Part shown: in pieces, positions 1,039 through 57,511 of the stretch | Position numbering within the stretch: the first letter of the stretch is position 1 | Layout of the letters: the number at the start of each line of letters is the position of its first letter | Source: a virus | Length of the DNA: 64,000 nt | IMG/VR virus record: IMGVR_UViG_3300020147_000065 | Span: 62,001-126,000 of that record | Direction: 5' to 3' (one strand) | The notes under the pieces: generated by a model | What the model saw: only the letters and a program-made list of their open reading frames with translations | What the model was told of the DNA's origin: nothing | Database searches by the model: none | Made by a program: the position numbers and the translations under genes

Positions 1039-1564
1039 CCCTCATTCTCTTGGATTTAATTCTCTTTTAACCGGTGGCTATCTCCCCGTGGATAGCTTAT
1101 TAAATTCTATCTGGAAATACAAGGGTGTACGTATAACCAGAGATGAATTAAACGAGATCGTCGAAACCAATAACAAACAACGTCTTTCCTATGATACAAC
1201 TGGTACTCTAATCAGAGCAAACCAGGGGCACAGTATTCCTGTGGACTTGCAGTTGACTCCTGAGACTCCACCGGCTGTACTATATCATGGTACAGATGAA
1301 AAATATGTTGACTCAATTAATGAGACTGGTATATACAAGAGTTCTCGTCATGCCGTTCATTTATCCGAAGATGTACATACCGCAGGTAAAGTAGGCGCTC
1401 GTCACAGCGGAAACCCATATGTTCTTGGGGTAGATGCCGAGCAAATGTATAAAGACGGATACTTGTTCTACAAATCAGAAAATGGCGTGTGGCTTACTGA
1501 TTTTGTGCCACAGGGATATTTACTAAGAGAGGAACATGGATATGAACCGATTCGATTTTATTGA
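989..1564 (+). CDS. kptA: RNA 2'-phosphotransferase KptA/Tpt1
   Basis: 191 residues from the ATG at 989, chosen because GGGAG at 975-979 sits at proper spacing; an ATG at 983 is too close and the one at 953 lies deep in the upstream gene. Family motifs are complete: KHLRHDP (catalytic Arg-His), TLIRANQGHS (second Arg), YHGT, HLSEDVHTA and VGARHSG (third Arg). Tpt1/KptA removes an internal RNA 2'-phosphate by transferring it to NAD+, releasing nicotinamide and ADP-ribose 1'',2''-cyclic phosphate. A phage copy suggests repair of RNA broken by host nucleases, consistent with the Pnkp-like phosphatase at 8858 and macro domain at 25617 (inference). Confidence 0.9.
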   Translation: MNLEQKGRLVVKHLRHDPHSLGFNSLLTGGYLPVDSLLNSIWKYKGVRITRDELNEIVETNNKQRLSYDTTGTLIRANQGHSIPVDLQLTPETPPAVLYHGTDEKYVDSINETGIYKSSRHAVHLSEDVHTAGKVGARHSGNPYVLGVDAEQMYKDGYLFYKSENGVWLTDFVPQGYLLREEHGYEPIRFY

Positions 1565-1802
1565 GAGGATCGAACGTGAACAATTTAGGGCCGTATTATA
1601 CCTCAGAAACAATACTCGTCATAACTTCCATGTGATCGCCAAAAAGGATGAATCTGTGGTAGTTGGTGATGAAATTGAATATGAACCATACTGTTTTAAT
1701 TTTGGTTATTTTGTGAAAAAGGTGACAGAAGATGAAGAGGAAATAGCTCGACTCAAAGCTCTTGGGACGCGACGCTCACATTGCGGCTCTGAGAGCAGGT
1801 AA
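1542..1802 (+). CDS. Hypothetical protein, acidic C-terminus
   Basis: 86 residues. The ATG at 1542 is preferred over 1536 because GAGAGG at 1527-1532 has about 9 bases of spacing to it. It overlaps the end of kptA by 23 bases and the next gene by 41. A beta-rich sequence with a cluster EDEEE near the end. I do not recognise a family. Confidence 0.5.
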   Translation: MNRFDFIERIEREQFRAVLYLRNNTRHNFHVIAKKDESVVVGDEIEYEPYCFNFGYFVKKVTEDEEEIARLKALGTRRSHCGSESR

Positions 1803-2064
1803 AACAGTGAGTTTCCGTGAAGGCGGAAACTCTATGACACCACGGATTAAACATAGACAGAAGTGTACTTATACACCCGTGGTTGGCCCCAGCGACGTGA
1901 AGAAAGGTGATGCTGTCTTTTGTAAGGTAGGACACCGATACTTCACACACTTGATTACAGCAATCAAGGGAGATCAATATCAAATCAGCAACAACCACGG
2001 GTTTGTGAATGGTTGGGTGACAATTGATAATATCTTTGGAAAGGTGATAAAGGTGGAGAACTAA
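1762..2064 (+). CDS. S24/S26 peptidase-like phage protein
   Basis: 100 residues with a TTG start; the frame is closed just upstream by TAG at 1744. The N-terminus AHIAALRAGKTVSF followed by GNSM resembles the S24/S26 (LexA or signal-peptidase fold) serine motif, and a beta-rich body ends in NGWVTIDNIFGKVIKVE. Similar small stand-alone proteins are common in phages. No transmembrane or DNA-binding part is present, so it is neither a full signal peptidase nor a repressor. No clear Shine-Dalgarno precedes the TTG, so it may rely on coupling to the overlapping upstream gene. Confidence 0.6.
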   Translation: MGRDAHIAALRAGKTVSFREGGNSMTPRIKHRQKCTYTPVVGPSDVKKGDAVFCKVGHRYFTHLITAIKGDQYQISNNHGFVNGWVTIDNIFGKVIKVEN

Positions 2065-2349: not shown

Positions 2350-2356
2350 GGTTCGG

Positions 2357-2770
2357 ATGAAAAAGTATTACAAGAAAGAGTATGTGGAGGCTGAACAATA
2401 TCTTCCACCAGAACAGATTCCAGAGGGAGTAACTTTTGCTGTTCATGGTCCTTATTCTCCCTATGCTGGGCAGAATGTCGCGTCATTCGGTCCATATATG
2501 ATATTACCTGGAGATTATGTCGTGATTGATTCTTATGGCGGTAAGCAGGTAATGACTCAAAAGGCATTTGAACATAATTATTCTGAGGCACCCGTGGAGA
2601 GTTTCGCACCCGGTGTCGTAATAAACGGTATTCACTACACTCCTACAGGTAAAGAATGGTTGGTTGCATTTGCTATGGCAGGTTGTCAATGGGCAATTGA
2701 GGCTTTAGTAAGAGAAAAACCTCTTGATGCTGAGGAAGAAAGAGAACAACACAACGCTAAACTCTTATGA
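2357..2770 (+). CDS. PGDYG-type phage protein
   Basis: 137 residues. Begins KKYYKKEYVEAEQY, has PGDYVVIDSYGGKQV and then FEHNY, the same order as each half of the tandem protein at 325-1038. The C-terminal 50 residues (helical, acidic end) are extra. Function unknown. It overlaps the next small gene by ATGA. Confidence 0.55.
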   Translation: MKKYYKKEYVEAEQYLPPEQIPEGVTFAVHGPYSPYAGQNVASFGPYMILPGDYVVIDSYGGKQVMTQKAFEHNYSEAPVESFAPGVVINGIHYTPTGKEWLVAFAMAGCQWAIEALVREKPLDAEEEREQHNAKLL

Positions 2771-2907: not shown

Positions 2908-2919
2908 ATTGAAATCCTC

Positions 2920-2947: not shown

Positions 2948-2968
2948 TTTCCCTGGTGATCGAAACAT

Positions 2969-4238: not shown

Positions 4239-4239
4239 C

Positions 4240-4291: not shown

Positions 4292-5461
4292 ATGTTGATT
4301 TGGGGAGCACTTATAATTCCGATTATCTTAACGATAATCTTCGTAATTAAATGGCATAATAAAATGGCCTGGTGGGAGTACGTTATTCCAACTTTAGCAG
4401 TTCTTATGATTATCGCCGTCTTTAAAAGCGGTACAGAAAGTATGCAAGTTCAGGACACAGAGTATCATGGCTCATGGGTAGCTACAGCAACCTACGAAGA
4501 GCCTTGGGATGAGTGGATTGAAGATACCTGCACCAAAACAGTGTCATGTGGTAAAGACTGTACGACCACTGAAACTTATGACTGTTCTTATAGAAAAGAC
4601 CATCCAGCTCAGTATTATATCGAGGAAGGTGCTGGTGGAAAAGTTCTTAACATAGACCCCGGTTATTTTAACTGGTTGTGCGAACATTTTGGTAACAAGA
4701 ACTTTATTGAAATGAATCGAGATTACTATCGAATTGATGGTAACGCTTATCAGACAATATGGGGTGGAGAGCGCAATAAACTGGTGCCTGTCTCTACAAT
4801 CCATAACTATGTGAATAGGATTCAGGCTTCAACAAGCGTATATCGCTTCCGCGAAATCCCTGAAAAAGAAGCGAAATCAAAAGGTCTTTATGAGTATCCT
4901 GGTGTAGATGCCCAATACCAGACCGAAAATATTCTTGGTCCGGCAGGTAATCAAAAGAATGATGCTGAGCGATACATTCAATTGTTAAATGCTACAATGG
5001 GCAGACCTAATCAGGTTCGGTTATACATTCTAATCTTTCAGGACAAACCACGGGATGTCGCTTTCGACCAACAGGCATATTGGGGTGGAGGCAACAAGAA
5101 CGAGTTCGTTGTTTGCATTGGAATTGATAAAGAGCGTAAAGTCAAATGGTGTGTACCATTCTCATGGATGGACAAACAGGGACTTACAACTAATATCCGT
5201 ACCGATGTTTTACAACAGACAGGAAAACCCCTTGACCTTTTGAAAGTAATACGACACCTTGAGGTAAGAGTACCAAAAGAGTGGGAGAGAAAGCAGTTCG
5301 CTGACTTTAACTATCTTACGGTTGAGCCTCCTCTGTGGGCAGTTATTATTACATACCTTGCCTCCATATTAGTTACCGGAGGAACTCTTTACTGGTGTCA
5401 TTGCAACGACTTTGAATGTGGTGGTCATAAAACTCCGTATCGGAGCCGTTATCGTTACTAA
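4292..5461 (+). CDS. Conserved-type membrane protein with Cys-rich ectodomain
   Basis: 389 residues, preceded by GGTGATT at 4282-4288. Two N-terminal helices (about residues 2-20 and 27-45), a large soluble domain and a last helix (about 352-372), then a basic tail. After the second helix there is a Cys-rich loop (CTKTVSCGKDCTTTETYDC). Similar phage proteins with the phrase KSGTESMQ are known to me only as hypothetical. Placement after a LemA-like protein suggests an envelope role during infection (inference). Confidence 0.6.
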   Translation: MLIWGALIIPIILTIIFVIKWHNKMAWWEYVIPTLAVLMIIAVFKSGTESMQVQDTEYHGSWVATATYEEPWDEWIEDTCTKTVSCGKDCTTTETYDCSYRKDHPAQYYIEEGAGGKVLNIDPGYFNWLCEHFGNKNFIEMNRDYYRIDGNAYQTIWGGERNKLVPVSTIHNYVNRIQASTSVYRFREIPEKEAKSKGLYEYPGVDAQYQTENILGPAGNQKNDAERYIQLLNATMGRPNQVRLYILIFQDKPRDVAFDQQAYWGGGNKNEFVVCIGIDKERKVKWCVPFSWMDKQGLTTNIRTDVLQQTGKPLDLLKVIRHLEVRVPKEWERKQFADFNYLTVEPPLWAVIITYLASILVTGGTLYWCHCNDFECGGHKTPYRSRYRY

Positions 5462-5848: not shown

Positions 5849-6850
5849 ATGAATTCTCAAAGAGAGTTGAATGAACAAGGTGTAGATTGGAATCGAGCTA
5901 CAAGAGAACATGCACTGGAGTATGTAAAGAAATTTGGATGGTATTTGGTACCGATTCACTCGCCACGGGGTTCTAAATGCTCATGTGGCCACGATGATTG
6001 TGATAAAATCGGAAAGCATCCTCGAATCAAGGAATGGCAAAAGAACTGTTCTAACGATCCAAAAGTAATAAATCAATGGTTTGACTGGTGGCCTGATATG
6101 AACATTGCTGTAGCTACTGGTCCTAACTCAAACCTCATAGCCATTGATGCCGACGGACTACGGGGCAAGAGAACGCTCATGATGGCTTTAACGCTACCAT
6201 ATACACTCTCTGCCCGTTCTGGTGATGGTGTCCATTATTACTTCAAGTATCCAAAAGGTTACACAGAGAAAGTAAAAACCAAGGCAGGTATGCTTCCCAA
6301 CGTGGATAGCCGAGCCGAAGGTGGTTACATTCTTCTGGCCCCCAGCCTTCACCGTAAAGGTTTCCGCTACGAATGGCTTGACTCTGCTGAGATAGCAACA
6401 GCACCTCAAATCATTCTTGATATGTTAACTGCCAATGAGCAGGAACACATTGAGGTAAAATTCAATGTCAAAATTGAAGACCCGAAGATTGACGCTTATG
6501 GAAAAGCGGCTTTACAAGACGAAATAGCGATTATCATGTCTTGTCCCATTGGACTTAAACTAAGGAATAAGACTTTTTATGCATCGTGTTGTAGGCTTTA
6601 TCGCCTCGTAGCAGGACAGTGTCTCGATGAAGCAACGGTTGATGAACTGGTAATGAATGCTTCTGAGCATATCAAAATGGAGCACGAAGAAGCCCTTAAA
6701 ACAAGAGATAGTGCAAAGAAATGGGCGGTAAACTTTCCACGAACACCAAAGGAAACTGAGGTTCATGTTCGCGCAGAAAATAAGAAATGGGAGCCTAAAT
6801 ATGCAGAACCGGCGCAGGTTCAATCTACCTTTGTTGACGACTTCATTTAA
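5849..6850 (+). CDS. Bifunctional DNA primase/polymerase (PrimPol), first copy
   Basis: 333 residues. The N-terminal PrimPol (AEP) signature is clear: WYLVPIH (31-37), Zn-binding CSCGHDDC followed by GKHPRIKEW, W..WPDMNIAVATG, and the metal motif AIDADG (Asp100/Asp102). APSLH near 170 supplies the later His. About 130 helical residues follow. It lacks a helicase domain. It probably primes phage DNA synthesis; a second, different PrimPol is at 34238. Confidence 0.8.
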   Translation: MNSQRELNEQGVDWNRATREHALEYVKKFGWYLVPIHSPRGSKCSCGHDDCDKIGKHPRIKEWQKNCSNDPKVINQWFDWWPDMNIAVATGPNSNLIAIDADGLRGKRTLMMALTLPYTLSARSGDGVHYYFKYPKGYTEKVKTKAGMLPNVDSRAEGGYILLAPSLHRKGFRYEWLDSAEIATAPQIILDMLTANEQEHIEVKFNVKIEDPKIDAYGKAALQDEIAIIMSCPIGLKLRNKTFYASCCRLYRLVAGQCLDEATVDELVMNASEHIKMEHEEALKTRDSAKKWAVNFPRTPKETEVHVRAENKKWEPKYAEPAQVQSTFVDDFI

Positions 6851-8858: not shown

Positions 8859-9451
8859 TGGCACTCAAAGAAAGTCCTGTTAGAGAACAAAATTTATTAC
8901 CCAAATGTTTCCAGTTGGGAGCATTACATAACGACCATCACAATCCATTTCTGGAAGCAGGAGCATGTTTGTTTGGCGACGAGATTGTTATTTATGATGT
9001 TGATGGAACAATCATAAATATCGAACATCGCCTCAAATATCTCACTCAAAAACCCAAGACGGATTGGAAAAGGTTTCTTGCTGAAATCGGAAATGACACC
9101 TGCTATGAACACATCAAAGAAATGGTTGTAGAAGATTTTATTTCCGGTAAAACTGTTTGTTTGGTGACTGCTCGAAATGAAGGTCAAGCACCAGAAACAA
9201 TCGCACAGATGCAGCAGTTCGGTGTTCCTTATCATTACCTCTTCATGAGAAAGAAGGGGGACTACCGATGCGATACAATCGTCAAAGAAGAAATCCTACG
9301 TCTTCTTCCGAAGGAGAAAATTCTATACGTAGTGGAAGACCGGCCACGGGTGATAGACATGTGGAGGCAGAATGGCTTAAAAGTAATTGCCGTCAACACT
9401 GCACCAGATTATGACTACACCAACGCCGCTACTGCCGAGGACTGTGAATGA
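8858..9451 (+). CDS. HAD phosphatase similar to T4 Pnkp 3'-phosphatase domain
   Basis: 197 residues. HAD motif I is IYDVDGTI (about 45-52), followed by EHRLKYL and TDWKRF as in the PseT/Pnkp phosphatase domain; motif II is CLVTARNEG, and the C-terminal VVEDRPRVIDMWR carries motif IV. No kinase P-loop, so only the phosphatase half of T4 polynucleotide kinase is represented. Expected activity is removal of 3'-phosphate or 2',3'-cyclic phosphate from RNA ends, a partner step to KptA in RNA repair (inference). An RNA ligase is not in the window. Confidence 0.8.
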   Translation: MALKESPVREQNLLPKCFQLGALHNDHHNPFLEAGACLFGDEIVIYDVDGTIINIEHRLKYLTQKPKTDWKRFLAEIGNDTCYEHIKEMVVEDFISGKTVCLVTARNEGQAPETIAQMQQFGVPYHYLFMRKKGDYRCDTIVKEEILRLLPKEKILYVVEDRPRVIDMWRQNGLKVIAVNTAPDYDYTNAATAEDCE

Positions 9452-11006: not shown

Positions 11007-11285
11007 ATGGCTGAGAACGAAACTTTGGACAATGCAACTGAACAGGGCGCACAAAAGGCCCCGTGGACCCAACTGGCTGGACTCTGGAAGAATGAGTCCA
11101 AGGGAGGAGTAAAGTACCTCTCTGGAAACCTTGGTGGAGGTAAGCTCATTGTTTATCCCAACACCAAGAAGGCTCAGGGTTCAAAAGAGCCGGACTTCCG
11201 TCTCTACATCGTAGACAACCCTCGTAAGCCGAAGGAAGAGGAAGCGTCTGAAAAGACTGAAGCTTCTGACGACTTCGCAGAATAA
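11007..11285 (+). CDS. Small protein with acidic tail
   Basis: 92 residues. Beta-rich core (GLWKNESKGG, YLSGNLGGGKLIVYPNTKK, DFRLYIVD) and a Glu-rich C-terminus ending DDFAE. Its position next to an exonuclease and upstream of recA, and the acidic tail, would suit an ssDNA-binding accessory protein, but no OB-fold signature can be shown. A terminator follows. Confidence 0.5.
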   Translation: MAENETLDNATEQGAQKAPWTQLAGLWKNESKGGVKYLSGNLGGGKLIVYPNTKKAQGSKEPDFRLYIVDNPRKPKEEEASEKTEASDDFAE

Positions 11286-11603: not shown

Positions 11604-12041
11604 ATGGGTTGTGGATGCAGAAAAGCAGCAACTACACAGGCACCGAAGAAGTTCGATATTCGCCATGCTGTGCGCGATGCTGCTGTAGAAAAAGCGAATG
11701 TTGCACGAAAGGCTGTCACAGGTAAGGAATATAAAACCAAGTTTGTTGATGACGACGTAAAACTCTTACGTCGTCTCACCTGTGGTGACCCTGACCCTAA
11801 TATTCTAGAAGGTGACCCCCGTAGGAATTGCCCGACTCATGATAGAATCGAGAGTCTGGATATTTGTGGTGTGTGTAAATGCTTCATAAATCAAAAGATT
11901 AAATTCAAGGATTCTTTCTGTCCACGGGGGCATTGGGGACCAGTGGGTGAAGACGGTAAAGAAGAAGTAACCGAGGCAGCAATTCCTGCCGGTGTTGCTT
12001 TACCAGGAGAAGAAATAGATGATCGAGAACTTACCGATTAG
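11604..12041 (+). CDS. Cys-rich hypothetical protein
   Basis: 145 residues starting MGCGCRKA, then a helix and a cysteine group C..D..RNC..C..CKC...FC, most likely one structural zinc site. The C-terminal 30 residues are acidic. The end overlaps the next gene by 23 bases. Not recognised. Confidence 0.55.
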   Translation: MGCGCRKAATTQAPKKFDIRHAVRDAAVEKANVARKAVTGKEYKTKFVDDDVKLLRRLTCGDPDPNILEGDPRRNCPTHDRIESLDICGVCKCFINQKIKFKDSFCPRGHWGPVGEDGKEEVTEAAIPAGVALPGEEIDDRELTD

Positions 12042-13398: not shown

Positions 13399-13819
13399 AA
13401 TCACAGTAGAGCAGGAAGATGCTCTACGTAAACTGCTTGGGGAGATAAACGAGAAGAACCCGATTATGGAAGCACACCACGGGGATTGTATTGTAGGCGA
13501 TGCCCTTTTCGACCGCGTGGTTCGTGAATTATTCCCCAAAGTGCCAATGCACATTCACCCTTGTGATATTGATGATAAAAGGGCGTATTGCAAAGTACGC
13601 CCTGGCCTCGATGTCCTTTATCCGGTCAAGAAACCCCTGGTTCGCAATATTGACATTATTAAAGGGGTTGACAAGATGATCGGAATGCCGTATAATAATG
13701 GTCCGTGGTCGCAACGTGGCGGCACATGGTACACGATACGACACGCTAAAGGAGCGCGTGATTTATTTGTCATATTTCCTGCGGGGAATATTGACCCTTA
13801 CGAATGCATAGATTTCTAA
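13367..13819 (+). CDS. SLOG/Rossmann-like nucleotide-binding protein
   Basis: 150 residues. Starts MKVGVTASSH, then HHGDCIVGDALFD, a strand MHIHPCD, NIDIIKGVDKMIGMP and a GGTWYTIRHAKG loop. This is the order of SLOG-type (YpsA/DprA/LOG relative) Rossmann proteins, which bind nucleotides or ADP-ribose-like ligands. It carries a consensus promoter in its 3' third (13668-13696). The link to the ADP-ribose genes elsewhere in the window is only a suggestion. Confidence 0.55.
   Translation: MKVGVTASSHKITVEQEDALRKLLGEINEKNPIMEAHHGDCIVGDALFDRVVRELFPKVPMHIHPCDIDDKRAYCKVRPGLDVLYPVKKPLVRNIDIIKGVDKMIGMPYNNGPWSQRGGTWYTIRHAKGARDLFVIFPAGNIDPYECIDF
13668..13696 (+). promoter_or_regulatory. Consensus promoter inside the SLOG-like gene
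   Basis: TTGACA (13668-13673), exactly 17 bases, TATAAT (13691-13696). About 108 bases upstream of the RlpA-like start, so it would express rlpA and the genes after it separately from recA. Confidence 0.7.
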
Positions 13820-41928: not shown

Positions 41929-44900
41929 TAGTCCACTCTGCTTCCTACCGGAAGCCCTCTAACAGAGATTTCCTCATGGGAGTGACCGTCCTCATCGGTC
42001 ACAACCATCGTTATACGACGAATAAAGTACACGTACTCATTTTCGTCAGGGGTTGTTATATTAATGGTAGCCGACTGGGAAATCAAATCTACCTCAAGAA
42101 CTTCACTGTAATCCCCATACTGCTTAACAGTCTCGTCCTCCTCGTTCACTATCAGGTTATAAGCTCTAACCTTGTAAAGGTATTTTCTACCTCGTCCCAA
42201 GAAATCAATATAACTTCCAACGGGAAGGTTTTCTGCTGTTAGAGGGTCTGGTAGTTCCAAAACATCATCTGGTTTATCGGCTGGAGCCAACCATTCATGG
42301 ATTGGGGTAGTGCCATAATCGGGAGTAGATGTCTTTTCTGCTCTCCATAGCTCTACACCATCAATCGGGTGACTACTTGATTCTTTCCAGGGGGCCGACT
42401 GAATGAAGACCTGGTGGTGGCTAAACGAACCAGAAACACCGAATACGTTTGTTATATCTCCAATATGCAACGGTGCATCCTGTTTTAGAGGAGTTAACGC
42501 CGTTTCAGTTAGATTCATAACTTGACCCGCTAAGGGACCAAGTACTTCACCTGAGTTGTTTGAGGCAACCCATCGAAGATCGTATTGATCTCCTGGTGTA
42601 AGATTTTTTAAGTTAATGACAACAACTGTACCGTTAGCCCAAGGTGCAACAGCAGCTTTCATTACCGTTCTACCGCTGTTTGTATAACGGTAAAGAGTAA
42701 GGTCATCACATCTTATTGGATAATTCCAATCAATTACGATGTCCATACGAGAAGCTTCTACGTTATCGTAAATGACTTCTCCGGGTAATCCGGCGGCCAA
42801 CTTTAATGTTGTTGCACTCGATTCAGGGCCTTCTACTTCATCCGTTGTGTTCCAAGAAACTGCACGGAAGAAGTATTCAGTGTCAGGTGTCAATCCTTCA
42901 AGAGTATATTCATCTCCTCCATCGAAGCTTACTTCTCCGCTGGAGTCTTCTATTCTATTCCAGGTGTCTCCATCCAGACTGTATTCAAGATATAGTCCAG
43001 TTGCCCTTGCAGGTAAAGCCGGAAGTATTAGATCAATTGTATAACGACCAATAAGCCCAGCAGTTACCAATCCTGGTACAGCAGGTGCAGCAATGTTTGT
43101 TGTTACAGCTAATGATAATCCTCTTCTTGCTTGAGGAGGATCACTATTTAACCACGCCACTGCCGCGAAGTAATATAAGGTTGATGGTGACAGACCTGTA
43201 ATATTTACAGTTGCTCCACCAGCGTAATCGGTACTATCGGTTTCCGTCCACGGGCCGTTAAAGTGAGGTGCTTTCCAGACACGTAAAGACGAAGCGTTTT
43301 CCGGTAACGCTGGAAGTGTTACCGTTACTGTAGTATCTGTTTTTGATACTAAAATAAGATTACCGGGTTTATCGGGGGATTCGCAGTCTCCTCCACCAGA
43401 ATTACTATCGCTGCTTTCAGAAGATACCAAACTCTGTTCTGATTCAGATGACATTGAATCACTTGAAGAAGAACTGTCTGGTTCGTCACTTGACACAGGA
43501 TTGCTCGATACAGGTTCACTACTTGTATCTGGGTCGCTTGATGCAGGGTCGCTTGATGCAGGGTCGCTTGATGCAGGGTCGCTTTCGAGATTACTACTTG
43601 ATTCCAGCGAGTCCGACGAAACGGACGAGCTGATTAATTCCTCAGAAGAAATACTTGTTTCATCCGAAGAATCAGAATTAGACGATAAAGATGCTCCGTT
43701 TATACGTAGGCATCCTGAGAAGCAAGCTCCTCCTGCAACTCTACCTCTTAGCTCATATATACCATCGGGCGCATCGAAAGGTGTGGTTAATCCCCAACTA
43801 CGAGCAGCGTCATTTAGTATTGTCGCTGTAAATCCATTGTCTTCAACACCAGGCGCTTCTGTCCAGAAATATCCAGAGTCAATGTGTCTGAGTGTCCAAC
43901 CCGTGGCAAGCACACTACCATTAACAGTAGGACATAGACCATCATATAGAGAAAAGTCAATGTAGCTACCGGCCTCTACCTCAGGAGGAGTAGCTTCACA
44001 CGCAATTACTGGTTCTGAGCATGGATTACTTTCTACCACATCGAATGTGGCCATTGCACAACGACCATCAAGAGTTTTTACGTAAACCTTGTAGTCATTG
44101 GCCTCAACCGCAGCAACGGGTACAAACAAACTAATTTGACCACTGCCTTTTATTCCAGCTTTGAATCCCGGAGTACCGTTGACACCTATTCTACCGGCAG
44201 AAACAGTAGCATTAGAACTATCTCTGACCTCCCAGTGGTCGGCAGATAACCATGCGATAGGAGCAGTACTTTCAGGCACCATAGCTCCACCACCAGGATG
44301 TAGGTATCGGTAATTACCACTACTACATTCGGTTACCTCTTCATCTTGTACCTCAATACAGAAAAGATTGGAATGTACTGACTCCTCATCTTCATACAAG
44401 AATCTGAGCTGATAAATTCCAGGATATAATAATCCAGGAGGAAGTTTAGCTGTGTATTCGTAGGTAGATGTAACATCTTTTGTTACATCGAAGTAACTAC
44501 CTAACGCACCTTGTAGAACCAAACCTTGACCATTGTACAAGGCCCAGTTGTTCTCAGTTGGGTATGCTAACCAATCGTCTTCATCGGTTACTGTTGCGGG
44601 TACATAGGGTGAAATAACCTGCTCGGTATCATCGCTGATAACCGTTGTTCCGGCAAAGCTTGGATCATTACCACAGAAAGTGTCCTTAACTTCTGCGAAA
44701 GTGAATGTTGCAGGATCACCAACAACTTCTTCATTGGTGTAACTGTTGTTGGCTCGTAATCTTACTTTATATGTTGCTCCCTGAACCACTTCAATAAATG
44801 GTGGATATAGAGTAACCTCAGATGGTCGAACGGAACCATAGACACCATATGGTGCCCAGGTAACGCCATTATCAGGACTGTATTCTAATGTCTCTAAAGT

Positions 44901-47366
44901 AAGTCCACAAGAACCGATAGCGTTAGCCAACGCAGGTAAAGCTATTGTTACAGCAGTTTCATATGCTTTAACAACCGTAACTGTTCCCGGCTTGATAATC
45001 TCACAATCTGGATCGTCTGTTGATAGACTTCCTTCTGCTACAACATCTAATACGAAACACCCTTCGAGCGTCGTAGTATCCCATTCGCGTGTGAATGTAT
45101 TATAGTTGTGTCTAACCAGAGCCAATACTTCATATTCAGCTCCATCAACTCCGTTTGTGGAGTCTTGGGCACTTATGAGTAATTGACCACCAAGAGATGA
45201 AACAGACCATCCGTTATTGACGGTGTTGCTTGCAATAACGGTGTCTAAGGCTTTCCTACGAATTATCCACTGGTCTACCCACTGGATTTCCTGTAATAGA
45301 GGATAAGCATCAACAGCATGATGACCGTTTGTTGTAATAGTCTGACAGACAGAAGTTGAAGTTAGATCACTAAACTGTTCCGAACTTAATACTTCTGTTA
45401 CGGTTGTAAAACAATTACTTCCGCCCGGACACCAACGCCAAGGTTGTTCCTTATCTTTTAACTGCCAATCAATTGTGTAATTGTGGCCCGGTGTAAGTCC
45501 TTTACCTACGCCTACATTAATTACGTAACCTACTCCAGCAGACCAGTAACTACCCACAACATTCCAATCATTTGGATTTGGAACTTCTCCTGGCCAAACC
45601 AAAGAAATTACTTCATTGGTATCCGAATCTCGAACTCTCCAATATGCAATCCTACAATTAACACCAGGAATTGGATTTTGATTGCGTATTTGAAAGAAAT
45701 TAGTATCGGCACTAATGTTTACACAATTTTCATCAGGCCAACTAAAACTATCAACTGGTTCAGATGATTGAACGGGTACCGGACAGTTTGTATCTCTTAT
45801 AGCTACAGCTTCGGCCTCAGTTTCGTAAGGTCCATGTGCAGTCCAATTTTCGATAAAGAAGGGGGTTTCATAATAACCAACGAAACCTCCACCAACATTA
45901 TAATTATCTGAGTCAGGACAGAATGCATACCAACCTATTCCAGGCCATTCTGATGACATGGAAGAGGATGAACCTTGCGGAAGAGCAATACCTTCAGCAA
46001 AGTAGAAAGGATTCACGTCTCCGTTGGAGTTTACACCCGCAATGTAAATATTTAAACCATAAGTTTGTGCTGGCCACTCGGTTAAACCAAAGGTAGCAGG
46101 TGTGATCACCCAATCTTCATCATTAGGTAGGTCTTCAATTGTCTCTGCCCAACTATTATGTGTTCCAGCAATCCAAGCGTAAACTTTAGCTGTATCCCAT
46201 TCTGGAATGTCTTCGTTGCAATATTCAAGTAATGGGGTTATTACTACTTGAGTATCACTGGCCTCTTTTACAGAAATTTTTGGTTGATCCGCATAAGACC
46301 ATTTGGTGGTCATGGCGCTTGGAGTCGAGTTATATACTTCCCCACCACAATCAACCTTAGAGAGGATACGAAACTGATATTCAGTATTTGGGCAGATAAG
46401 ATCGGGTCCAATTCTTACCGCAAAAGATGGTCCATATGTACCACTACCCGTAACACTCTGTGCCGTTATCCAGTCGGTATCTCCAACCTTTCTGAATTGG
46501 AAATCATAGATGTCTGCATTGAATTCTGTATCTACAGGGAAGAATACATCAAAACCAATGTAACCATCTGGCTCTTGATACACTTGCTGATAACCGCGCG
46601 ATTGCCACACGATTGGGGCATCCATTGCAGCAGGAACAGGACAAGTTAAAGTAATACTGTCGTAGCACCCACGAGCGGTTGTTACTGTGGCAACTCGTTC
46701 TGATTCAGTGAAATTATCACCCTGAAATGTTACGAATTCCTCTCTGTTACCAGAACCAGAAGTTGTGTGAGTGTTTTCTGTGGTAGAACCATAATCATAT
46801 AGTAATTCTCCAGCATTAGATGAATATCTAACAGGATAATAAACAATATACTCAACAACTCTTGGTGAACCACTTGTATCAAAGACATCTGCCAGAGTCA
46901 TACGAAGAGGTTGATCCCAGGGAATCCAACCTTCACTAATATGCTCATTAAAGGAAACATCTACCCACTTAGCTCTGATTCTGCAATTGTAGCCACCTTC
47001 AACCCAGTTTGGTACTATGACTGTATCTACACCACTATCTCGAGGTAAATCAACGTCTACCCAGTCATTACCTTCTTCAAGAATTGTAGGGCCATACGCT
47101 AAACCACTTGTAATATACGAATAAGTACCACTATCAACTTCAACATCGCTTTCGTCATAAGCGGTCCAGTTAACTTCATATTCACTGTCTGGTGTTAAAC
47201 CTTGTAGTGAGCGAAAGTGTGATAATAATACACCAGTGAAGCTACCCACGGGAGTAGGATTGCCGACGGGGTTAACCGTGAAATCATAATGATGAACGGA
47301 AACATCAGATTCGCAGCGGAATACTGTAATATGAGATGCGTTGGCTACTACTGAAACATTAATCAT
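41928..47366 (-). CDS. Giant fibronectin-III and Ser-rich virion protein
   Basis: 1812 residues. Several FN3-like modules: an N-terminal one ending LQGLTPDSEYEVNW and two clear ones after the linker with LTPDTEYFFRAVSWN and LSPSTLYYFAAVAW. The middle has Cys-containing repeats (each with CP or WCP patterns). A Ser/Asp/Pro/Glu linker at about residues 1245-1330 is partly made of SSDPA repeats. No signal peptide or enzymatic motif. Likely a tail-fibre or surface adhesin. Confidence 0.6.
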   Translation of the reverse strand: MINVSVVANASHITVFRCESDVSVHHYDFTVNPVGNPTPVGSFTGVLLSHFRSLQGLTPDSEYEVNWTAYDESDVEVDSGTYSYITSGLAYGPTILEEGNDWVDVDLPRDSGVDTVIVPNWVEGGYNCRIRAKWVDVSFNEHISEGWIPWDQPLRMTLADVFDTSGSPRVVEYIVYYPVRYSSNAGELLYDYGSTTENTHTTSGSGNREEFVTFQGDNFTESERVATVTTARGCYDSITLTCPVPAAMDAPIVWQSRGYQQVYQEPDGYIGFDVFFPVDTEFNADIYDFQFRKVGDTDWITAQSVTGSGTYGPSFAVRIGPDLICPNTEYQFRILSKVDCGGEVYNSTPSAMTTKWSYADQPKISVKEASDTQVVITPLLEYCNEDIPEWDTAKVYAWIAGTHNSWAETIEDLPNDEDWVITPATFGLTEWPAQTYGLNIYIAGVNSNGDVNPFYFAEGIALPQGSSSSMSSEWPGIGWYAFCPDSDNYNVGGGFVGYYETPFFIENWTAHGPYETEAEAVAIRDTNCPVPVQSSEPVDSFSWPDENCVNISADTNFFQIRNQNPIPGVNCRIAYWRVRDSDTNEVISLVWPGEVPNPNDWNVVGSYWSAGVGYVINVGVGKGLTPGHNYTIDWQLKDKEQPWRWCPGGSNCFTTVTEVLSSEQFSDLTSTSVCQTITTNGHHAVDAYPLLQEIQWVDQWIIRRKALDTVIASNTVNNGWSVSSLGGQLLISAQDSTNGVDGAEYEVLALVRHNYNTFTREWDTTTLEGCFVLDVVAEGSLSTDDPDCEIIKPGTVTVVKAYETAVTIALPALANAIGSCGLTLETLEYSPDNGVTWAPYGVYGSVRPSEVTLYPPFIEVVQGATYKVRLRANNSYTNEEVVGDPATFTFAEVKDTFCGNDPSFAGTTVISDDTEQVISPYVPATVTDEDDWLAYPTENNWALYNGQGLVLQGALGSYFDVTKDVTSTYEYTAKLPPGLLYPGIYQLRFLYEDEESVHSNLFCIEVQDEEVTECSSGNYRYLHPGGGAMVPESTAPIAWLSADHWEVRDSSNATVSAGRIGVNGTPGFKAGIKGSGQISLFVPVAAVEANDYKVYVKTLDGRCAMATFDVVESNPCSEPVIACEATPPEVEAGSYIDFSLYDGLCPTVNGSVLATGWTLRHIDSGYFWTEAPGVEDNGFTATILNDAARSWGLTTPFDAPDGIYELRGRVAGGACFSGCLRINGASLSSNSDSSDETSISSEELISSSVSSDSLESSSNLESDPASSDPASSDPASSDPDTSSEPVSSNPVSSDEPDSSSSSDSMSSESEQSLVSSESSDSNSGGGDCESPDKPGNLILVSKTDTTVTVTLPALPENASSLRVWKAPHFNGPWTETDSTDYAGGATVNITGLSPSTLYYFAAVAWLNSDPPQARRGLSLAVTTNIAAPAVPGLVTAGLIGRYTIDLILPALPARATGLYLEYSLDGDTWNRIEDSSGEVSFDGGDEYTLEGLTPDTEYFFRAVSWNTTDEVEGPESSATTLKLAAGLPGEVIYDNVEASRMDIVIDWNYPIRCDDLTLYRYTNSGRTVMKAAVAPWANGTVVVINLKNLTPGDQYDLRWVASNNSGEVLGPLAGQVMNLTETALTPLKQDAPLHIGDITNVFGVSGSFSHHQVFIQSAPWKESSSHPIDGVELWRAEKTSTPDYGTTPIHEWLAPADKPDDVLELPDPLTAENLPVGSYIDFLGRGRKYLYKVRAYNLIVNEEDETVKQYGDYSEVLEVDLISQSATINITTPDENEYVYFIRRITMVVTDEDGHSHEEISVRGLPVGSRVD
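43531..43584. repeat. 15-base tandem repeat in the Ser-rich linker
   Basis: GGGTCGCTTGATGCA three times (43531-43575) plus a partial copy. It encodes the five-residue unit SSDPA on the minus strand; unit length is a multiple of three, so copy changes keep frame. Confidence 0.95.
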
Positions 47367-48914: not shown

Positions 48915-49491
48915 AAGTTCGGGTGCCCTCGAATTGGTGTACTCCGATGGTATCTTTCGTCACACTACCTTTTCCATCATAGTTCAACGGAATGAAATAC
49001 TTATTAGGTAACTTGATTACATGAGGTTCAATCATATCAAGTAAGTAGAATGAACCAACTGAGTATGTTATGTCTTCGTTTTTTCTTTCCTCATATCTTG
49101 CTGGAAGACCGGCGATAACTTTCGCTAACCACGGGTCTTTAGGTTCTGCGCCCATCTCACAGTTACATGGGTGTTCAGGAGTACGCATTGAGATATGCGG
49201 AGTTTTAGAGCGTATGCTATCAGGGATCGGTTTAACTGGTTCTGTATCCAGATCAATCCAAAGTCCGCCCGTTCTGTAGAGAAGTTCGTACCTTAATATG
49301 TCTGACTTTCCTCTTAGATCGTTTATTTGATCATATAAACGATAATTATTTAGAAAAGGAATTGTCTCATCTACCAAAAGATGGACTTGCCAGGTTGGGT
49401 TTAGTTCCTGCCAACGCTTATGCCATTCTAAAAGATGTTCGGGTATCGGTGATGGACCAATCCATGCTTGATAAATGATTTTAGGTATCAT
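48874..49491 (-). CDS. GT32-type glycosyltransferase, paralogue
   Basis: 205 residues from ATG 49491 (GAGGAG upstream). IPKIIYQAWIGPSPIP, then KSDILRYELLYRTGGLWIDLD with the DxD motif. Same architecture as the neighbour but only moderately similar, so the duplication is not recent. Confidence 0.8.
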   Translation of the reverse strand: MIPKIIYQAWIGPSPIPEHLLEWHKRWQELNPTWQVHLLVDETIPFLNNYRLYDQINDLRGKSDILRYELLYRTGGLWIDLDTEPVKPIPDSIRSKTPHISMRTPEHPCNCEMGAEPKDPWLAKVIAGLPARYEERKNEDITYSVGSFYLLDMIEPHVIKLPNKYFIPLNYDGKGSVTKDTIGVHQFEGTRTYDNTKTTPRLVGK

Positions 49492-50539
49492 TTTGTAAAA
49501 TCTCCTCATAGAGAAGATAGTCTTCTCCAATCAGTCCTTTTAATAACGTGCCCTCAGGGTCTGCGATCCCCTGCTTGAGCCTGTGCCCCATACCAATCCC
49601 CGATTCTCCTGGTAGACCTTTTACACTTACATGTAATCCTTCATTTTGTAGAATTGTTTTATTTCCACTAAATGATCGCCACAGCGCAAGGTCAATCATT
49701 GGTCTTCCTTGCTCGGCAATTGATATTACGAATGGTTTTAATTTACCTTTAAATCCGGTTTGAGCGAGACTACTATGCTCAAAGTTCTTGATGTTTCGAT
49801 AAAGCTTTCTACTTAAATGATAATATATGGCGGGACTGTTACCTACCAAATCGTACTCTTTAAGTTTTTTCAGCATTATTTCAATGTAATTAGAAGAATA
49901 CCAGTCATCATCTTCTACGACGAGGATATAATCGGCATCTGTATGTTTTAAACCGACTTTTAGATTTTCACAGAGGCTATGACCCTCTCCGTCTTTTGGA
50001 GTTCTTTTGATAATCTTTTGTCTGTAATCTGAGTAATCATACTCCTCGTTTCCATCATTGACGACAACCCATTCAAAATTACGATGAGTTTGTCTACCCA
50101 TCCATTTTTGAGTAAGATCGAACGCCTTAGCACGATTCCTTGTGGGTGTAATCAGAGCAACTTTTTCATCAGTTTGCTCGACAGTTTCTAAGATCATCCC
50201 CGTGGTTAGCGAAACAAGAGCTACCGATCTCCATATGGATTTCTCGAACGTATATTCACCATTAACAGACATGTCTGAATTAGGATTGGTTGCTAAAAAA
50301 GACATTGCCTGTTGAACATCTTCTTTCGTCATCCATGCTTCACCACGGCCAAAGGTCACGAAATCATATCCTTCTTCTCTACAGAGGGAAAAGAGTTCTG
50401 GAAAGTTTTCAACATCAATTTTTGGTACACTCTTGATTCTATATGTTTCAAAATAAGGCAGGTAATTTCCTTGAATAATTGAAACAATTTCAGAAGTTAT
50501 TTTACCTTCGACAACAATCAATATTCCCTGGTGGTTCAT
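49481..50539 (-). CDS. GT2-family glycosyltransferase with N-terminal domain
   Basis: 352 residues. An N-terminal domain of about 125 residues is unrecognised. The GT-A core begins KVALITPTRNRAKAFDLTQKW, WVVVNDGNEEYDY, and has the metal motif VVEDDDWY. Fits glycosyltransferase family 2. Overlaps the upstream gene by ATGA. Confidence 0.78.
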   Translation of the reverse strand: MNHQGILIVVEGKITSEIVSIIQGNYLPYFETYRIKSVPKIDVENFPELFSLCREEGYDFVTFGRGEAWMTKEDVQQAMSFLATNPNSDMSVNGEYTFEKSIWRSVALVSLTTGMILETVEQTDEKVALITPTRNRAKAFDLTQKWMGRQTHRNFEWVVVNDGNEEYDYSDYRQKIIKRTPKDGEGHSLCENLKVGLKHTDADYILVVEDDDWYSSNYIEIMLKKLKEYDLVGNSPAIYYHLSRKLYRNIKNFEHSSLAQTGFKGKLKPFVISIAEQGRPMIDLALWRSFSGNKTILQNEGLHVSVKGLPGESGIGMGHRLKQGIADPEGTLLKGLIGEDYLLYEEILQNDT

Positions 50540-51889: not shown

Positions 51890-54800
51890 TTAAATAATCC
51901 GAGCGATTGCCGGGACCTTCATCCTTTCTAATTGTGGTGCTGCCAGAACTATGACTTCGATACCCCTACTATATGGTTGAGGTGTCTTAGTTAATCTTTC
52001 AAAGCGCACACGTTTATTAAAAGTCTTCAATAGAGCTGACTGTTCGGTTGGATCAAAGTTGCCTGATTCATCCTTAGTAATAGGAATATAGTCTTCTTCC
52101 CTTGCTTCACGATACCAGGCAATTCGATAACGCCGATCCAATTCGGTCAAGCGATGATCGAGTGTCGTATCAACCAACTCAAACATATTCACCGGTGCTC
52201 CATGAGGAGGTAAGTAAATAATCTTCCAGAGTGTTCCTGGCGGCATTCCTTTTTCTGCGTCGTCGGCATCATCAGGATCACAAGGTACAAACACACCAGC
52301 GATAATTTTACCAACCACAGGTTTGTCTCCAATCAATCTGATGACTGGACAAGTAACCGGATTGTAAGGAAAACCAATTATGACTGGACAATATCGAGAA
52401 TTCCATCCGAGTAAAATTCCTCGTCCATATGCTGGATCATTTGGATCGTATGGAAGTGAGCCGGTTGTCAGACAGTAAGATAATCTACTACCTGAAACAA
52501 ACTTTTCAAGATATACACCTGATGCTGTGTCACTTGGAATCCAGCATTCCCCATCCCATACAATGTAAGGAGGTAAACAGCTCAAGTCGGTGATTCCATA
52601 TACTGTTTGCAACAAACTCCTTTCAATCCAGAAGCAGACTCCGTCATCCCATTGAAGTGTTGCAGGTTGAATATAACGTGGGCACCAGGGATCGGTTGCT
52701 CCACTACCAATTGCAATACCAGGATAGGAAATCAAATCATAGGTACTGGGTAATGAACCATTTTGGATATAACACATCGTGTCTACACTCAATTGCTGTT
52801 CAAGATAAACTTGATTATCAGCAACTTCCGTAGCTGGCACCCAACATAAAGTATTATTGTTGAGCACAAGATATTGTGGTAAATCAGAAGGCTCAAGACC
52901 AAAAGAATCAAGGTAATCAATTAGGATACAAAAGTCTTCGGAACATCCACGAGGAACGATTGGTGGTCCAACCTCTGTCGAGCACCACTTGTTTCCGCAG
53001 ATAGCCAGAGCACGGTTATCCCAGTCTGTTACATCATAAGGCCATTCAGGACTTAGATTTCCAACTTCCTTGAGTTCATAACAAAATCTTTCTGTCCCAA
53101 CAGTCTTTTCGAGATATAACCCCGTGGTTGGCTCACTTGTTTCTGGTACCCAGCACTGTGAACCACTAAGCCATGATAGAAAATCAGGTAATAGTTCGAC
53201 TCGTATACCATAATGGTAACGAAGCTCGGCAATTTTACCACAGAAAGAATTAGTACTTGGTCGCCATACTATGATAGGCACTTCTGTCTTCTTAGTACAC
53301 CACGGACCATCAATGGTGACGAAGGAAATACCACCATACCCATCCACGGGACAGTTAGGTTCAGGTGTAGAGCCTTGTACTAAAGAATAACATACAAGAT
53401 CACCATTAACAGATAACTCAAGATAGCTCACCGAAGTATCCGTCGGCTCCGTGGCCGACGGAAGCCAACAACCCGTTACGGAATCCCATACAAGGAAGGG
53501 AGGAAGCATATTGGGAGTAATACCGAAATCTCTTTCTAAAAGTTCTTTATCAATACAGTAGCAGGTACATCTGTCACAACTACAATACCACGTTGGTGAA
53601 TCATAGTCTACAGGACACCACTCATGGTCGTTTCTGAGTAATCCTCGATTACACCAGTCACTTGCGTCATAAGGTAATGAACCTGTGCCCTGATAAATTA
53701 CTTCGGTTGCTGTTACACTCTTCGTCAAAGAGTAATCAGTTGTAGCTACATCATTGTCCCAGCAATAACCCTGGAAATTGATTACAGCATCTAATAAAGA
53801 ATCAGTTGGCTCAAGACCATAACGATACTTTAAATTCTCTATGCTAACAACAAACTGATCATCAGCATCACGATAGATGAGTAATGTTTGTGGGCGAGGT
53901 CTTACTCCCCACGGTGATAAACCACCATATTGAATAGCATCATTGGTGTCTGCGGTTATTGCATATGGTAAGGCTCCACCAGGTACGTATACAATACGGT
54001 CTGGTGTAGCAAGAATCTGTTTTTCAAGGAATGTAGTACCGGCGATGTCCGAAGGTACCCACTCATCTACTTCCCAGTTAAGGTAATCCGGTAAGCTATC
54101 GGACGAGTTGATATAAAGCCGTGACTTCACATCGAAGTCAAGCATTACGAATCCGGCGTCATCAGCATCGTAAACAAATGCGAAATTGTCTTCCGGCATT
54201 CTCTCAGGGCAGGGCGCACAATAAGATACTTTTCCGTTTGTTATTGTGCGCGTGAGATAAAACGTGTTGTCTTCCGGTGGATTGTTTTTCAACACCCATT
54301 CTCCATCGAGCCACCACCAATAAGGAGCGAAGTCCTCTATGTTCCCGGTGTTCTTTGGGAAACGTAAACCGCCGCAGTTGGCCAAAATCTCCTGAAAAGC
54401 GGCACCTGCACCGGCACCACTTCTTTCTGTTTCGAGATATTGGCCACCAGTTGTTGCGGCGTAATCTTGCATGATCTCAACAATTCTCTGGTTATAGTAA
54501 GTGGGAACATAAACCGCGGAAACAAGGATGCCTTTTTCCATAGCTTTTACAGCCATTTCATGAGCGAAGACATCGTCTCGACCATCTTCATAACCTGATA
54601 TGCCAATATCATGGGGATGAGCGTCAGTTACCAGAATAGCAATCTTTAAGACATTTTTCCTAAATGGGGTAAAGTCTCCATTCTGACCTGGGCGTTCTGC
54701 TAACTCATCTACAACCGTTTGTAATGCGGCGGACGAGGCTTCAGGCTCGTCGCCACCGCCGCCAGCCGTTAGCGCGGAAATAGCAGCAATTACATCGTTG

Positions 54801-57511
54801 TCGTTTTGAGCACCGAAAGGAACATGAACCGTTACATCATCTTTGAAGCTGACCACGGACATTCGGTAGTCTCCACCTGAAATTTCGTGGATCAAGTTCA
54901 TTGTGTCAAGTAATTCATTCTTAACACTTTCTAATGTTCCGCCCATGCTACCCGTGTCGTCAATAATAAACGCTACGTCGGTAGGACCACATAATGAACC
55001 TGGTTCATTTCCTGTGGAAGCTTCGGCCACAAGGTCAGAAACAAAACAGTTCAAGAATCTGTCCCATGTGAACATTACTGGACGACCATCATAATCTACT
55101 TCAGCGATGTACTGGTTCTCGTAATCAACGACCTTGTTTCCACCTGTTCCACTGATTACCTTATAGCCGATGACCAAAAGCTTCCATACGTCAGGATTGT
55201 CTGTTGGATAAGGTGTGGCTTTAGTAACACGAAACTCAAAATCAAGTTCTCGCCATTTTTCTCCGTCCGTAAGAGCAAATATTGGTTCTTCTGAACGATA
55301 GGCGTCAGTTACAACCCCTTTATCGTTAGGCACACCTCTTCCTCTCTTACCGAATAACAACATATTGTTGTTAACATTTATTAAGTGTTGCCATTGATAC
55401 TCACGGGCATCAAATTCACGACTTGTGTCGAGAACGGTTGTGGTAATATCACCCGTTTCTTTTGTTTTCCTTTGCCAACCAGACGAGCCGAGGCTAACCA
55501 ACCCCTGGATTGCATTTTCATATCCAGTTGGTTTTTCCTCTACTACTCCCCATAGGTTGTTCATCCATTTTTCAATGGACATGGGTCCATGAAAAGGTGT
55601 GCCTTCTGACGCGTTTTTCTGATTACCATTTACTTGATAAACGGCATTAAAGAATGGCGATACAGAAGAAAATGAACCAAGCTTTTCTCCGGCATAGTAA
55701 AGAGTATTCCCGATAGATTTTAATGCTTGTCCACCAGGAGAACCAGATGTGTTTAAAGGATAAGACAACAACCTGGTAGTAACAGTTGGACGATTGACGA
55801 ACAACTTGTAAAGAGTGGTTTTGCTTAATAAGAATACATCACCGTTATCAGAAATCTCAATAGATGTTGCAGAGTGATCCTGTAATGAACCCTCGACAGT
55901 TAAAGAGAAAGGATTAGGTGTTGTGGCAATGACTACCGCTTCAAGACCTGAATCAGTAGAGACATTTTCTTTGATGTTCCAAAGAGTTATGTAGTTACCC
56001 TCTGGAGTAGATCGTTCTCCAGCAGCTAATATACTTCCAGCTTCAGCCAGTACAGTACCGTCATTTTGCACGAGATCGTTTTGAAGATATATCACTTTGT
56101 TGATATATCGCATCATGGGATCAAGACTGTAATAAATTCGGTTTTCTCCAGCATTTGTGATAGATTCCTCAAACATTTGCCATTCATTAATAATGATTTC
56201 TGTTCGAGGCCCAACCACGGTGTCTTCATCAAAGTAAACTGTTTTACTTTGACTGGCTGTAAACTTAATTCGATAGGATTTATATGCGACATCATTCTCA
56301 AAAGCAAAGAATGAAACCTGACCGTGCTTAATAGTGGAGTTTGTGATTACTTGGAGAATATCAAATGTGGCGAAATCATCATTAGATGCTTCAAGTTGCC
56401 ATGATTTAGGGAGCCATGTGATGGGTCCACCGATTCCACATAAGAGCGCATAACTCTTGATTATCTTTTCGTTTCCTGTGCCGTAATCAAATGTGAGGTA
56501 TGCTGGGAGTTCTCCACCATCATCATTTTGATTTTTAGTCGTCCAGAAATCATTTCCAGTACCATTAAATGCATTTTCAGCGAGATCATCATTGTAAGAA
56601 GCTGATGAAGTACCGCCACCCTGTGCTTGATCCACAAATACTGGGCGCTCAATGCGATATAAGGTTGGTCCTGCTGTGTTTATTGTAGACTCGTTATAAG
56701 TCCATGTTGCAGGTAAAGAAGAGGAGTCCTGACATAGAATTTTTAAAGTTGTCCATTCTCCATCTGATTCACCAGCACCAGTTAGATAACCAATCCACTT
56801 GGGGTTGTCTTTCTGTACACCTGAAGCAAGGATTGCAGCTCTTTGTAGAAGCAAAGGGTGATTGCGGTCAGAAGGTACTTTTCCAATGTTATAAAAAGGA
56901 TCATATACCCATGATTTACCATCTTCAATATATGTTACAGCAGCGGTTGGTTTGTATCCAGGAGGAAGCAAATAAGGTTGTTCCGCTCTAACTTTTATAC
57001 GAAGTAACAGAGAACCTGGTGAAAGCGTAAACACACCACTGGTGATTTTACCATCGGTGGCAGCACTCTGTTTAAATGAACCGGCGGCCATTATGTACCC
57101 GGTTTCACTCTCTTGAATTTCGTAAAGGTAAGTTGGATTTACTGAAGCGGCTGCATTATCGAGGGAGAAGGAAAATCTGTATTCGCCCTCTTCTACAATT
57201 TGTACTCTATCTCCCCCGTGGGTTGCTTGTGTAGAAGTCCCTAACAGCTTTAAATCACGAATACGAGTCTTAATAACAGGAGAATAAGCACCACGGACTA
57301 AAGCACCTTTACCACCGGCTCTACCTTCTGTAAGAAAGTCCCAGGTTTCAAAGTCGCTTTCCCACGAATCTGTTTGAGCACAAACCCAGTATGCATCAGC
57401 AAGACGGAAGGTTTCTTTTGCAATAAAAGTATATACCTTTCCATTAACTACGTGTCCCTGTATGGGCTTGATGATGTCAACAATGTTAACCTTTGGATTT
57501 CTTAGTGCCAT
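51890..57511 (-). CDS. Giant adhesin-like virion protein with F5/8C-like and vWA domains
   Basis: 1873 residues. About 305-455: F5/8 type C/discoidin-like domain (AENAFNGTGNDFWTTK, LPKSWQLEASNDDF). About 845-1060: vWA domain with complete MIDAS FIIDDTGSMGG and VTDAHPHD. About 1090-1710: at least six repeats of about 90-100 residues with Cys-Trp pairs (CWVPATE, CWIPSDT, CWLPSATE). Short C-terminal domain. Sugar or protein binding by the F5/8C-like and vWA parts suggests host attachment. Start overlaps the upstream gene by 26 bases. Confidence 0.7.
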   Translation of the reverse strand: MALRNPKVNIVDIIKPIQGHVVNGKVYTFIAKETFRLADAYWVCAQTDSWESDFETWDFLTEGRAGGKGALVRGAYSPVIKTRIRDLKLLGTSTQATHGGDRVQIVEEGEYRFSFSLDNAAASVNPTYLYEIQESETGYIMAAGSFKQSAATDGKITSGVFTLSPGSLLLRIKVRAEQPYLLPPGYKPTAAVTYIEDGKSWVYDPFYNIGKVPSDRNHPLLLQRAAILASGVQKDNPKWIGYLTGAGESDGEWTTLKILCQDSSSLPATWTYNESTINTAGPTLYRIERPVFVDQAQGGGTSSASYNDDLAENAFNGTGNDFWTTKNQNDDGGELPAYLTFDYGTGNEKIIKSYALLCGIGGPITWLPKSWQLEASNDDFATFDILQVITNSTIKHGQVSFFAFENDVAYKSYRIKFTASQSKTVYFDEDTVVGPRTEIIINEWQMFEESITNAGENRIYYSLDPMMRYINKVIYLQNDLVQNDGTVLAEAGSILAAGERSTPEGNYITLWNIKENVSTDSGLEAVVIATTPNPFSLTVEGSLQDHSATSIEISDNGDVFLLSKTTLYKLFVNRPTVTTRLLSYPLNTSGSPGGQALKSIGNTLYYAGEKLGSFSSVSPFFNAVYQVNGNQKNASEGTPFHGPMSIEKWMNNLWGVVEEKPTGYENAIQGLVSLGSSGWQRKTKETGDITTTVLDTSREFDAREYQWQHLINVNNNMLLFGKRGRGVPNDKGVVTDAYRSEEPIFALTDGEKWRELDFEFRVTKATPYPTDNPDVWKLLVIGYKVISGTGGNKVVDYENQYIAEVDYDGRPVMFTWDRFLNCFVSDLVAEASTGNEPGSLCGPTDVAFIIDDTGSMGGTLESVKNELLDTMNLIHEISGGDYRMSVVSFKDDVTVHVPFGAQNDNDVIAAISALTAGGGGDEPEASSAALQTVVDELAERPGQNGDFTPFRKNVLKIAILVTDAHPHDIGISGYEDGRDDVFAHEMAVKAMEKGILVSAVYVPTYYNQRIVEIMQDYAATTGGQYLETERSGAGAGAAFQEILANCGGLRFPKNTGNIEDFAPYWWWLDGEWVLKNNPPEDNTFYLTRTITNGKVSYCAPCPERMPEDNFAFVYDADDAGFVMLDFDVKSRLYINSSDSLPDYLNWEVDEWVPSDIAGTTFLEKQILATPDRIVYVPGGALPYAITADTNDAIQYGGLSPWGVRPRPQTLLIYRDADDQFVVSIENLKYRYGLEPTDSLLDAVINFQGYCWDNDVATTDYSLTKSVTATEVIYQGTGSLPYDASDWCNRGLLRNDHEWCPVDYDSPTWYCSCDRCTCYCIDKELLERDFGITPNMLPPFLVWDSVTGCWLPSATEPTDTSVSYLELSVNGDLVCYSLVQGSTPEPNCPVDGYGGISFVTIDGPWCTKKTEVPIIVWRPSTNSFCGKIAELRYHYGIRVELLPDFLSWLSGSQCWVPETSEPTTGLYLEKTVGTERFCYELKEVGNLSPEWPYDVTDWDNRALAICGNKWCSTEVGPPIVPRGCSEDFCILIDYLDSFGLEPSDLPQYLVLNNNTLCWVPATEVADNQVYLEQQLSVDTMCYIQNGSLPSTYDLISYPGIAIGSGATDPWCPRYIQPATLQWDDGVCFWIERSLLQTVYGITDLSCLPPYIVWDGECWIPSDTASGVYLEKFVSGSRLSYCLTTGSLPYDPNDPAYGRGILLGWNSRYCPVIIGFPYNPVTCPVIRLIGDKPVVGKIIAGVFVPCDPDDADDAEKGMPPGTLWKIIYLPPHGAPVNMFELVDTTLDHRLTELDRRYRIAWYREAREEDYIPITKDESGNFDPTEQSALLKTFNKRVRFERLTKTPQPYSRGIEVIVLAAPQLERMKVPAIARII

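Follow-up and report, generated by a model that had tools for sequence, protein, structure and literature searches.

What reads a 12-base motif, CCCGTGG-N3-G(C/T), that lies scattered over both strands of a 64,000-nucleotide stretch of viral DNA? The stretch (hereafter the window) comprises bases 62,001–126,000 of a 221,108-bp virus record, IMGVR_UViG_3300020147_000065, and the whole record was examined. A first-pass annotation had interpreted the motif as a protein-binding or recognition site and suggested, among other ideas, a Chi-like signal. The first part of that interpretation is well supported by the profile of the motif, its single favoured gap, gene shuffles, and the peptide contexts of its copies, whereas the Chi-like idea found no support. 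We also found that the motif fills the spacers of a set of promoters, a new finding that is the best clue to its function. We see an even chance that one sequence-specific protein reads the motif, both as a promoter operator and at dispersed sites elsewhere.

The excess of the motif was real and stronger than claimed. The exact core, CCCGTGG or CCACGGG, occurs 34 times in the window, 17 times in each orientation (at least 33, split 16 to 17, in the annotation). The fourth base past the core is G in 31 of 34 copies and the next base is C or T in 27 of 34 (31 and 27 of 33 as first counted). Markov simulations of the window (orders 1–4) gave means of 3–9 for CCCGTGG, with a maximum of 15 versus the 34 observed, and means of 0.6–1.9 for CCCGTGG-N3-G, with a maximum of 6 versus 31. 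The preference for the extension held throughout the record, in which CCCGTGG occurs 138 times, 128 of them with N3G, 109 with N3GY, and 78 with N3GC. The 128 sites are divided between the strands as 57 plus and 71 minus, and a backward-pattern control occurred 7 times in the record compared with these 128. When the gap before the G was varied from N0 to N7, the record counts were 19, 12, 42, 128, 11, 20, 20, and 16, a gap of 3 being the only favoured one. The profile consensus, (c)CCCGTGG-t-t-r-G-c, is non-palindromic and its flanks are nearly without information. Variants beginning with A or T (A/TCCGTGGN3G) were also enriched in N3G (40 of 65), as expected for a binding site with some tolerance.

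Genes were called as a simple set based on open reading frames, which makes the coding and non-coding counts approximate, and 89 of the 128 sites lie wholly within the called genes. These sites occupy all six gene phases and both gene strands (38 on the same strand as the gene and 51 on the opposite one, P = 0.20), in agreement with the annotation, and fall in 88 different peptide contexts. It is thus the DNA that is constrained and not the protein, and a protein-motif explanation is rejected. The coding sites taken alone show a t-t-r-G-C preference identical to that of the full set. Furthermore, shuffling the genes while keeping the protein and its codons, or the protein and its dinucleotides, yielded 5–6 N3G sites versus 90 seen in genes; such shuffles thus do not reproduce the counts, and neither of the two refuting outcomes named in the annotation was obtained. 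A compositional or codon artefact, or a mobile repeat, would have only the G+C richness of the motif in its favour, but it is contradicted and already refuted by the null models, the backward control (7), the unrelated flanks, and the 88 peptide contexts, and its probability is close to nil.

All sites were scanned in both orientations for a surrounding sigma-70 promoter, the score being a simple consensus count with a cut-off of 11. At a score of 11 or more, 16 promoters were found in the motif orientation and 1 in the opposite one, whereas 1.7 were expected from random places, so that the excess of the motif in promoter spacers is roughly 10-fold. At least 16 sites occupy the 16–18 bp spacer of near-consensus sigma-70 promoters. 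A typical example is TTGACA-AAC-CCCGTGGTTTGC-AG-TAAAAT, in which the 17-bp spacer is filled by the motif. The window holds one such promoter, at 30020–30048 on the minus strand. It is listed below with the 34 cores of the window, the annotated coordinates of which are off by no more than one motif length.

1085..1096, plus strand: site CCCGTGGATAGC, intergenic
1876..1887, plus strand: site CCCGTGGTTGGC
1990..2001, minus strand: core only, fourth base past the core not G, CCCGTGGTTGTT
2591..2602, plus strand: site CCCGTGGAGAGT
5043..5054, minus strand: site CCCGTGGTTTGT
5958..5969, minus strand: site CCCGTGGCGAGT
9339..9350, minus strand: site CCCGTGGCCGGT
11060..11071, plus strand: core only, CCCGTGGACCCA
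11917..11928, minus strand: site CCCGTGGACAGA
13472..13483, minus strand: site CCCGTGGTGTGC
15529..15540, minus strand: site CCCGTGGACTGC
17920..17931, plus strand: site CCCGTGGCAAGC, within the B12-dependent ribonucleotide reductase gene
19020..19031, minus strand: site CCCGTGGCCGGT
19966..19977, plus strand: site CCCGTGGTAGGA
21055..21066, plus strand: site CCCGTGGCTTGT
22204..22215, plus strand: site CCCGTGGTTTGA
22266..22277, minus strand: site CCCGTGGCCAGC
26038..26049, plus strand: site CCCGTGGGTTGC
27095..27106, minus strand: site CCCGTGGTTAGC
30028..30039, minus strand: site CCCGTGGGATGC, operator-type, within the promoter 30020–30048
30020..30048, minus strand: sigma-70-like promoter TTGACA-N17-TAGAAT with the motif in its spacer, upstream of a 93-aa gene (29731–30009, minus strand)
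32128..32139, plus strand: site CCCGTGGATGGC
34330..34341, plus strand: core only, CCCGTGGGGGAA
34388..34399, minus strand: site CCCGTGGTCAGC, within a Prim-Pol gene
38120..38131, plus strand: site CCCGTGGATAGC
38637..38648, minus strand: site CCCGTGGACAGC
39980..39991, plus strand: site CCCGTGGATGGC
43243..43254, minus strand: site CCCGTGGACGGA
43900..43911, plus strand: site CCCGTGGCAAGC
47241..47252, minus strand: site CCCGTGGGTAGC
49124..49135, minus strand: site CCCGTGGTTAGC
50199..50210, plus strand: site CCCGTGGTTAGC
53121..53132, plus strand: site CCCGTGGTTGGC
53339..53350, minus strand: site CCCGTGGATGGG
57215..57226, plus strand: site CCCGTGGGTTGC

The link to promoters was also seen among 76 C-run promoters, most of which lie in the early region. 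Their layout is often a hairpin followed by TGCCCCCCCCC, a TTG(C/T) −35 element, 17 bp, and TATAAT. An ATG often lies about 8 nt after the −10 element, so many of their transcripts may be leaderless. In eight of the 76 the spacer contains CCCGTGG, always in the promoter orientation, and about 1.3 sites were expected in such spacers; several of these eight also belong to the set of 16. As a separate observation, TGCCCCCC is present in 96 copies outside the window and 0 within it, mainly at record bases 154,000–193,000 (L014, L015, and L016), and 76 C-runs of this type directly precede the TTG of a −35 element; in most cases a hairpin lies before them and a small early gene follows. A search of contigs for the promoter pattern TGCCCCCCCCCTTGC returned none with many copies.

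Because near-consensus promoter spacers filled in a fixed orientation are the classical place of an operator, the most likely reader of the motif is a repressor. The protein, which is probably encoded by the phage, would recognise an asymmetric site of 11–13 bp with a single binding polarity, either as a monomer or in some set arrangement. In at least 16 promoters it would exclude RNA polymerase by occupying the spacer that separates −35 from −10. The remaining sites, which number approximately 110, recur on either strand once in about 2 kb, mostly in genes, and might hinder elongation, organise the genome, or both. A single protein could in this way make the phage genome transcriptionally silent at a particular stage. 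Since the density of these sites is about equal in genes and in other non-coding DNA and they follow no orientation rule, they may be roadblocks effective in both orientations or may have an organising role.

Several points weigh against such a repressor. About 110 of the 128 sites are outside promoters, and those in genes show neither an orientation bias with respect to transcription (the split of 38 versus 51 given above) nor a strong bias in position, although such biases are not demanded by a purely transcriptional model. No repressor was recognised by Pfam or among the PHROGs families listed for the phage proteins; the matches listed included sigma-70 region 4 (two), one AsnC-type helix-turn-helix, and a Prim-Pol with a winged helix. 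No integrase was among the families listed and ParB was absent, so a role in lysogeny is not indicated. In addition, no near relative that would show turnover of the sites was found in the open collections.

The closest working model for an operator with dispersed copies is the stoperator system of L5-like phages. Cluster A mycobacteriophages (L5, Bxb1, and TipsytheTRex) carry asymmetric operator/stoperator sites of about 13 bp, some in promoters and most not; the repressor that reads them is a monomer with two DNA-binding domains (PMC9283540, PMC6550527). The present motif is similar in being an asymmetric site in many copies (128, non-palindromic) and in having some copies within promoters (16 versus 1.7 expected), a likeness of placement only. 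It differs in its consensus and in its number, 128 sites versus 20–30. Stoperators follow the direction of transcription, whereas here the promoter sites do so at 16:1 but the gene sites do not (38 same versus 51 opposite), and their non-promoter copies lie mainly in short intergenic spaces, whereas 89 of 128 sites here are inside genes. Moreover, no lysogeny genes were seen and no repressor was recognised in this phage. As two features of stoperators are shared, two are not, and no repressor was identified, we do not assign the motif to that class.

The distribution along the record bears on what the dispersed sites may do. Orientation is balanced in every 10-kb bin, spacing is Poisson-like and compatible with random placement, and the density, obtained by dividing counts, is 0.50 per kb in genes and 0.5 per kb in non-promoter non-coding DNA; the late structural region is mildly poor in sites (19 versus 29 expected, P = 0.03). 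This uniformity and the lack of an orientation rule in genes would suit genome-organising sites, at which a nucleoid or condensation protein with a 12-bp address bridges, compacts, or marks the DNA and any promoter use is secondary. However, neither the roughly 10-fold enrichment of promoter spacers nor the 16:1 orientation within them follows from such a role alone, and no ParB-type gene or candidate protein was found; we thus regard this reading as unlikely. A somewhat different possibility, which we hold only tentatively, is a nucleoid-associated regulator, encoded by a lytic phage, that reads an asymmetric 12-bp address every 1.7 kb or so on either strand, for the most part within genes, and combines promoter shut-off with genome-wide organisation or silencing. 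Such a regulator would differ from stoperators, which are orientation-bound, and from the known condensing proteins of phages.

The spacing of the sites on each strand (mean 3.1–3.7 kb, median 2.6 kb) would be plausible for Okazaki fragments, and the phage encodes two Prim-Pol proteins, one of them at window 34238–35719 with a C-terminal winged helix and the other among the further genes on the window side. A phage Prim-Pol might accordingly start Okazaki fragments at the motif, which occurs on both strands and contains GTG; the primase of pRN1 reportedly has GTG as its template motif. To our knowledge, however, known primases read about 3 bases, not 8–12, and priming leaves the placement and orientation in promoter spacers unexplained, so that we consider it improbable.

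A Chi-like recombination or nuclease-protection signal common to phage and host would be expected in excess in the genome of the host. The motif resembles Chi (RecBCD/AddAB) in being short, asymmetric, G+C-rich, and frequent on both strands, and the phage has genes for RecA/UvsX and a Holliday-junction nuclease. The nearest full-length relatives of its ribonucleotide reductase (RNR) pointed, among others, to Chloroflexota. None of 400 genomes of that phylum, to which Herpetosiphon belongs, or of 116 genomes of a second phylum had the motif at a phage-like density, and other RNR-bearing genomes showed no enrichment either, the true host not being identified. Herpetosiphon itself has 97 copies versus 7 of the control in 6.8 Mb, but this is a different phenomenon, as the density is only some 1/25 of that in the phage. 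As fixed-orientation placement in promoter spacers is also not predicted by this idea, the proposed match to a host Chi was not borne out and has little probability.

The asymmetric consensus and the several HNH genes of the phage would also fit the recognition site of a nicking enzyme, as in T5, phiKMV-like phages, and tf, in which an asymmetric consensus is likewise repeated through the genome, or of a DNA modification enzyme such as an orphan methyltransferase. Restriction sites tend to be depleted rather than enriched, which argues against modification. The 14 nick sites of tf, like those of T5 and phiKMV-like phages, lie in one strand only (PMC3517423), whereas the 128 sites here are on both (57/71). 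Neither enzyme would account for the placement in promoters, and the chance of either is very slim.

Other short genomic signals were compared as well. DnaA boxes, too, are asymmetric: they are 9-mers to which monomers bind. The reverse complement of the motif, GCTAACCACGGGG, shares CTA-CCAC in part with TTATCCACA, but the final CACA there is CACG here; parS is palindromic, whereas the motif is asymmetric. In family searches the phage proteins matched neither the DnaA C-terminal domain nor ParB_N or the ParB family, although the DnaA of the host might be used. The DnaA and ParB readings are thereby weakened or fail. HIP1 of cyanobacteria (GCGATCGC) also reaches a very high genome frequency and is reported to be a palindrome linked to methyltransferases (PMC4390886); the present motif differs in being asymmetric, carried by a phage, and enriched in promoters. 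A literature search for CCCGTGG gave unrelated matches only.

The source is a large (jumbo) bacterial virus not described before. The same sequence stands at both ends of the record, apart from a single base in a C-run, which makes a complete circular assembly probable. The virus is a tailed phage, with genes for terminase, major head protein, DNA polymerase, DnaB, rIIA, and rIIB. Of its 36 tRNA genes, ARAGORN assigned two as tRNA-Pyl (CTA) and tRNA-SeC (TCA) (L017:3926-3998 and L017:11482-11555), possibly stop-codon suppressor tRNAs. Also encoded are a protein (L017:8682-9992, plus strand) that matches poly(ADP-ribose) polymerase annotations of Klebsiella, Xanthomonas, and Stenotrophomonas phages at 32–38% identity, and a BCS1-like AAA ATPase with a BCS1 N-terminal domain (window 7082–8494), of a family known mainly from mitochondria. 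Palindromes are strongly depleted across the record (AGATCT, 2 versus 142 expected; also CCATGG and CAGCTG), as is AGATCC (1 versus 101), which suggests restriction pressure.

The middle of the window, used as a megablast query for relatives, gave no match. Polymerase-related contigs reached at most about 60% identity in the polymerase, and most were lower in G+C. The motif was absent or at background in these records (0–3 copies), and gapped-word scans of eight of them detected no comparable dispersed motif. One polymerase relative (G003, 143 kb) has 67 copies of AACTGTTT/AAACAGTT versus 15 expected, possibly a dispersed motif of another sequence. Queries of viral contigs with the capsid, the helicase, and a 2537-aa tail-region protein found no kin, and the terminase query found one phage contig, L071. 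It carries tandem 8-bp units (GGCTTAAA/GGATTAAA variants) at 3868–4270, and its enriched words were rejected as a counterpart of the dispersed motif because they form this tandem array.

Genome-wide address sequences of phages are known in few cases, and the present one stands out for its density and sharp definition. Its maintenance within coding sequence and its tie to identifiable promoters make the binding protein retrievable by its site. The role of that protein would reveal either that a large phage has an orientation-free kin of stoperator control or that phage DNA can be organised in a new way.

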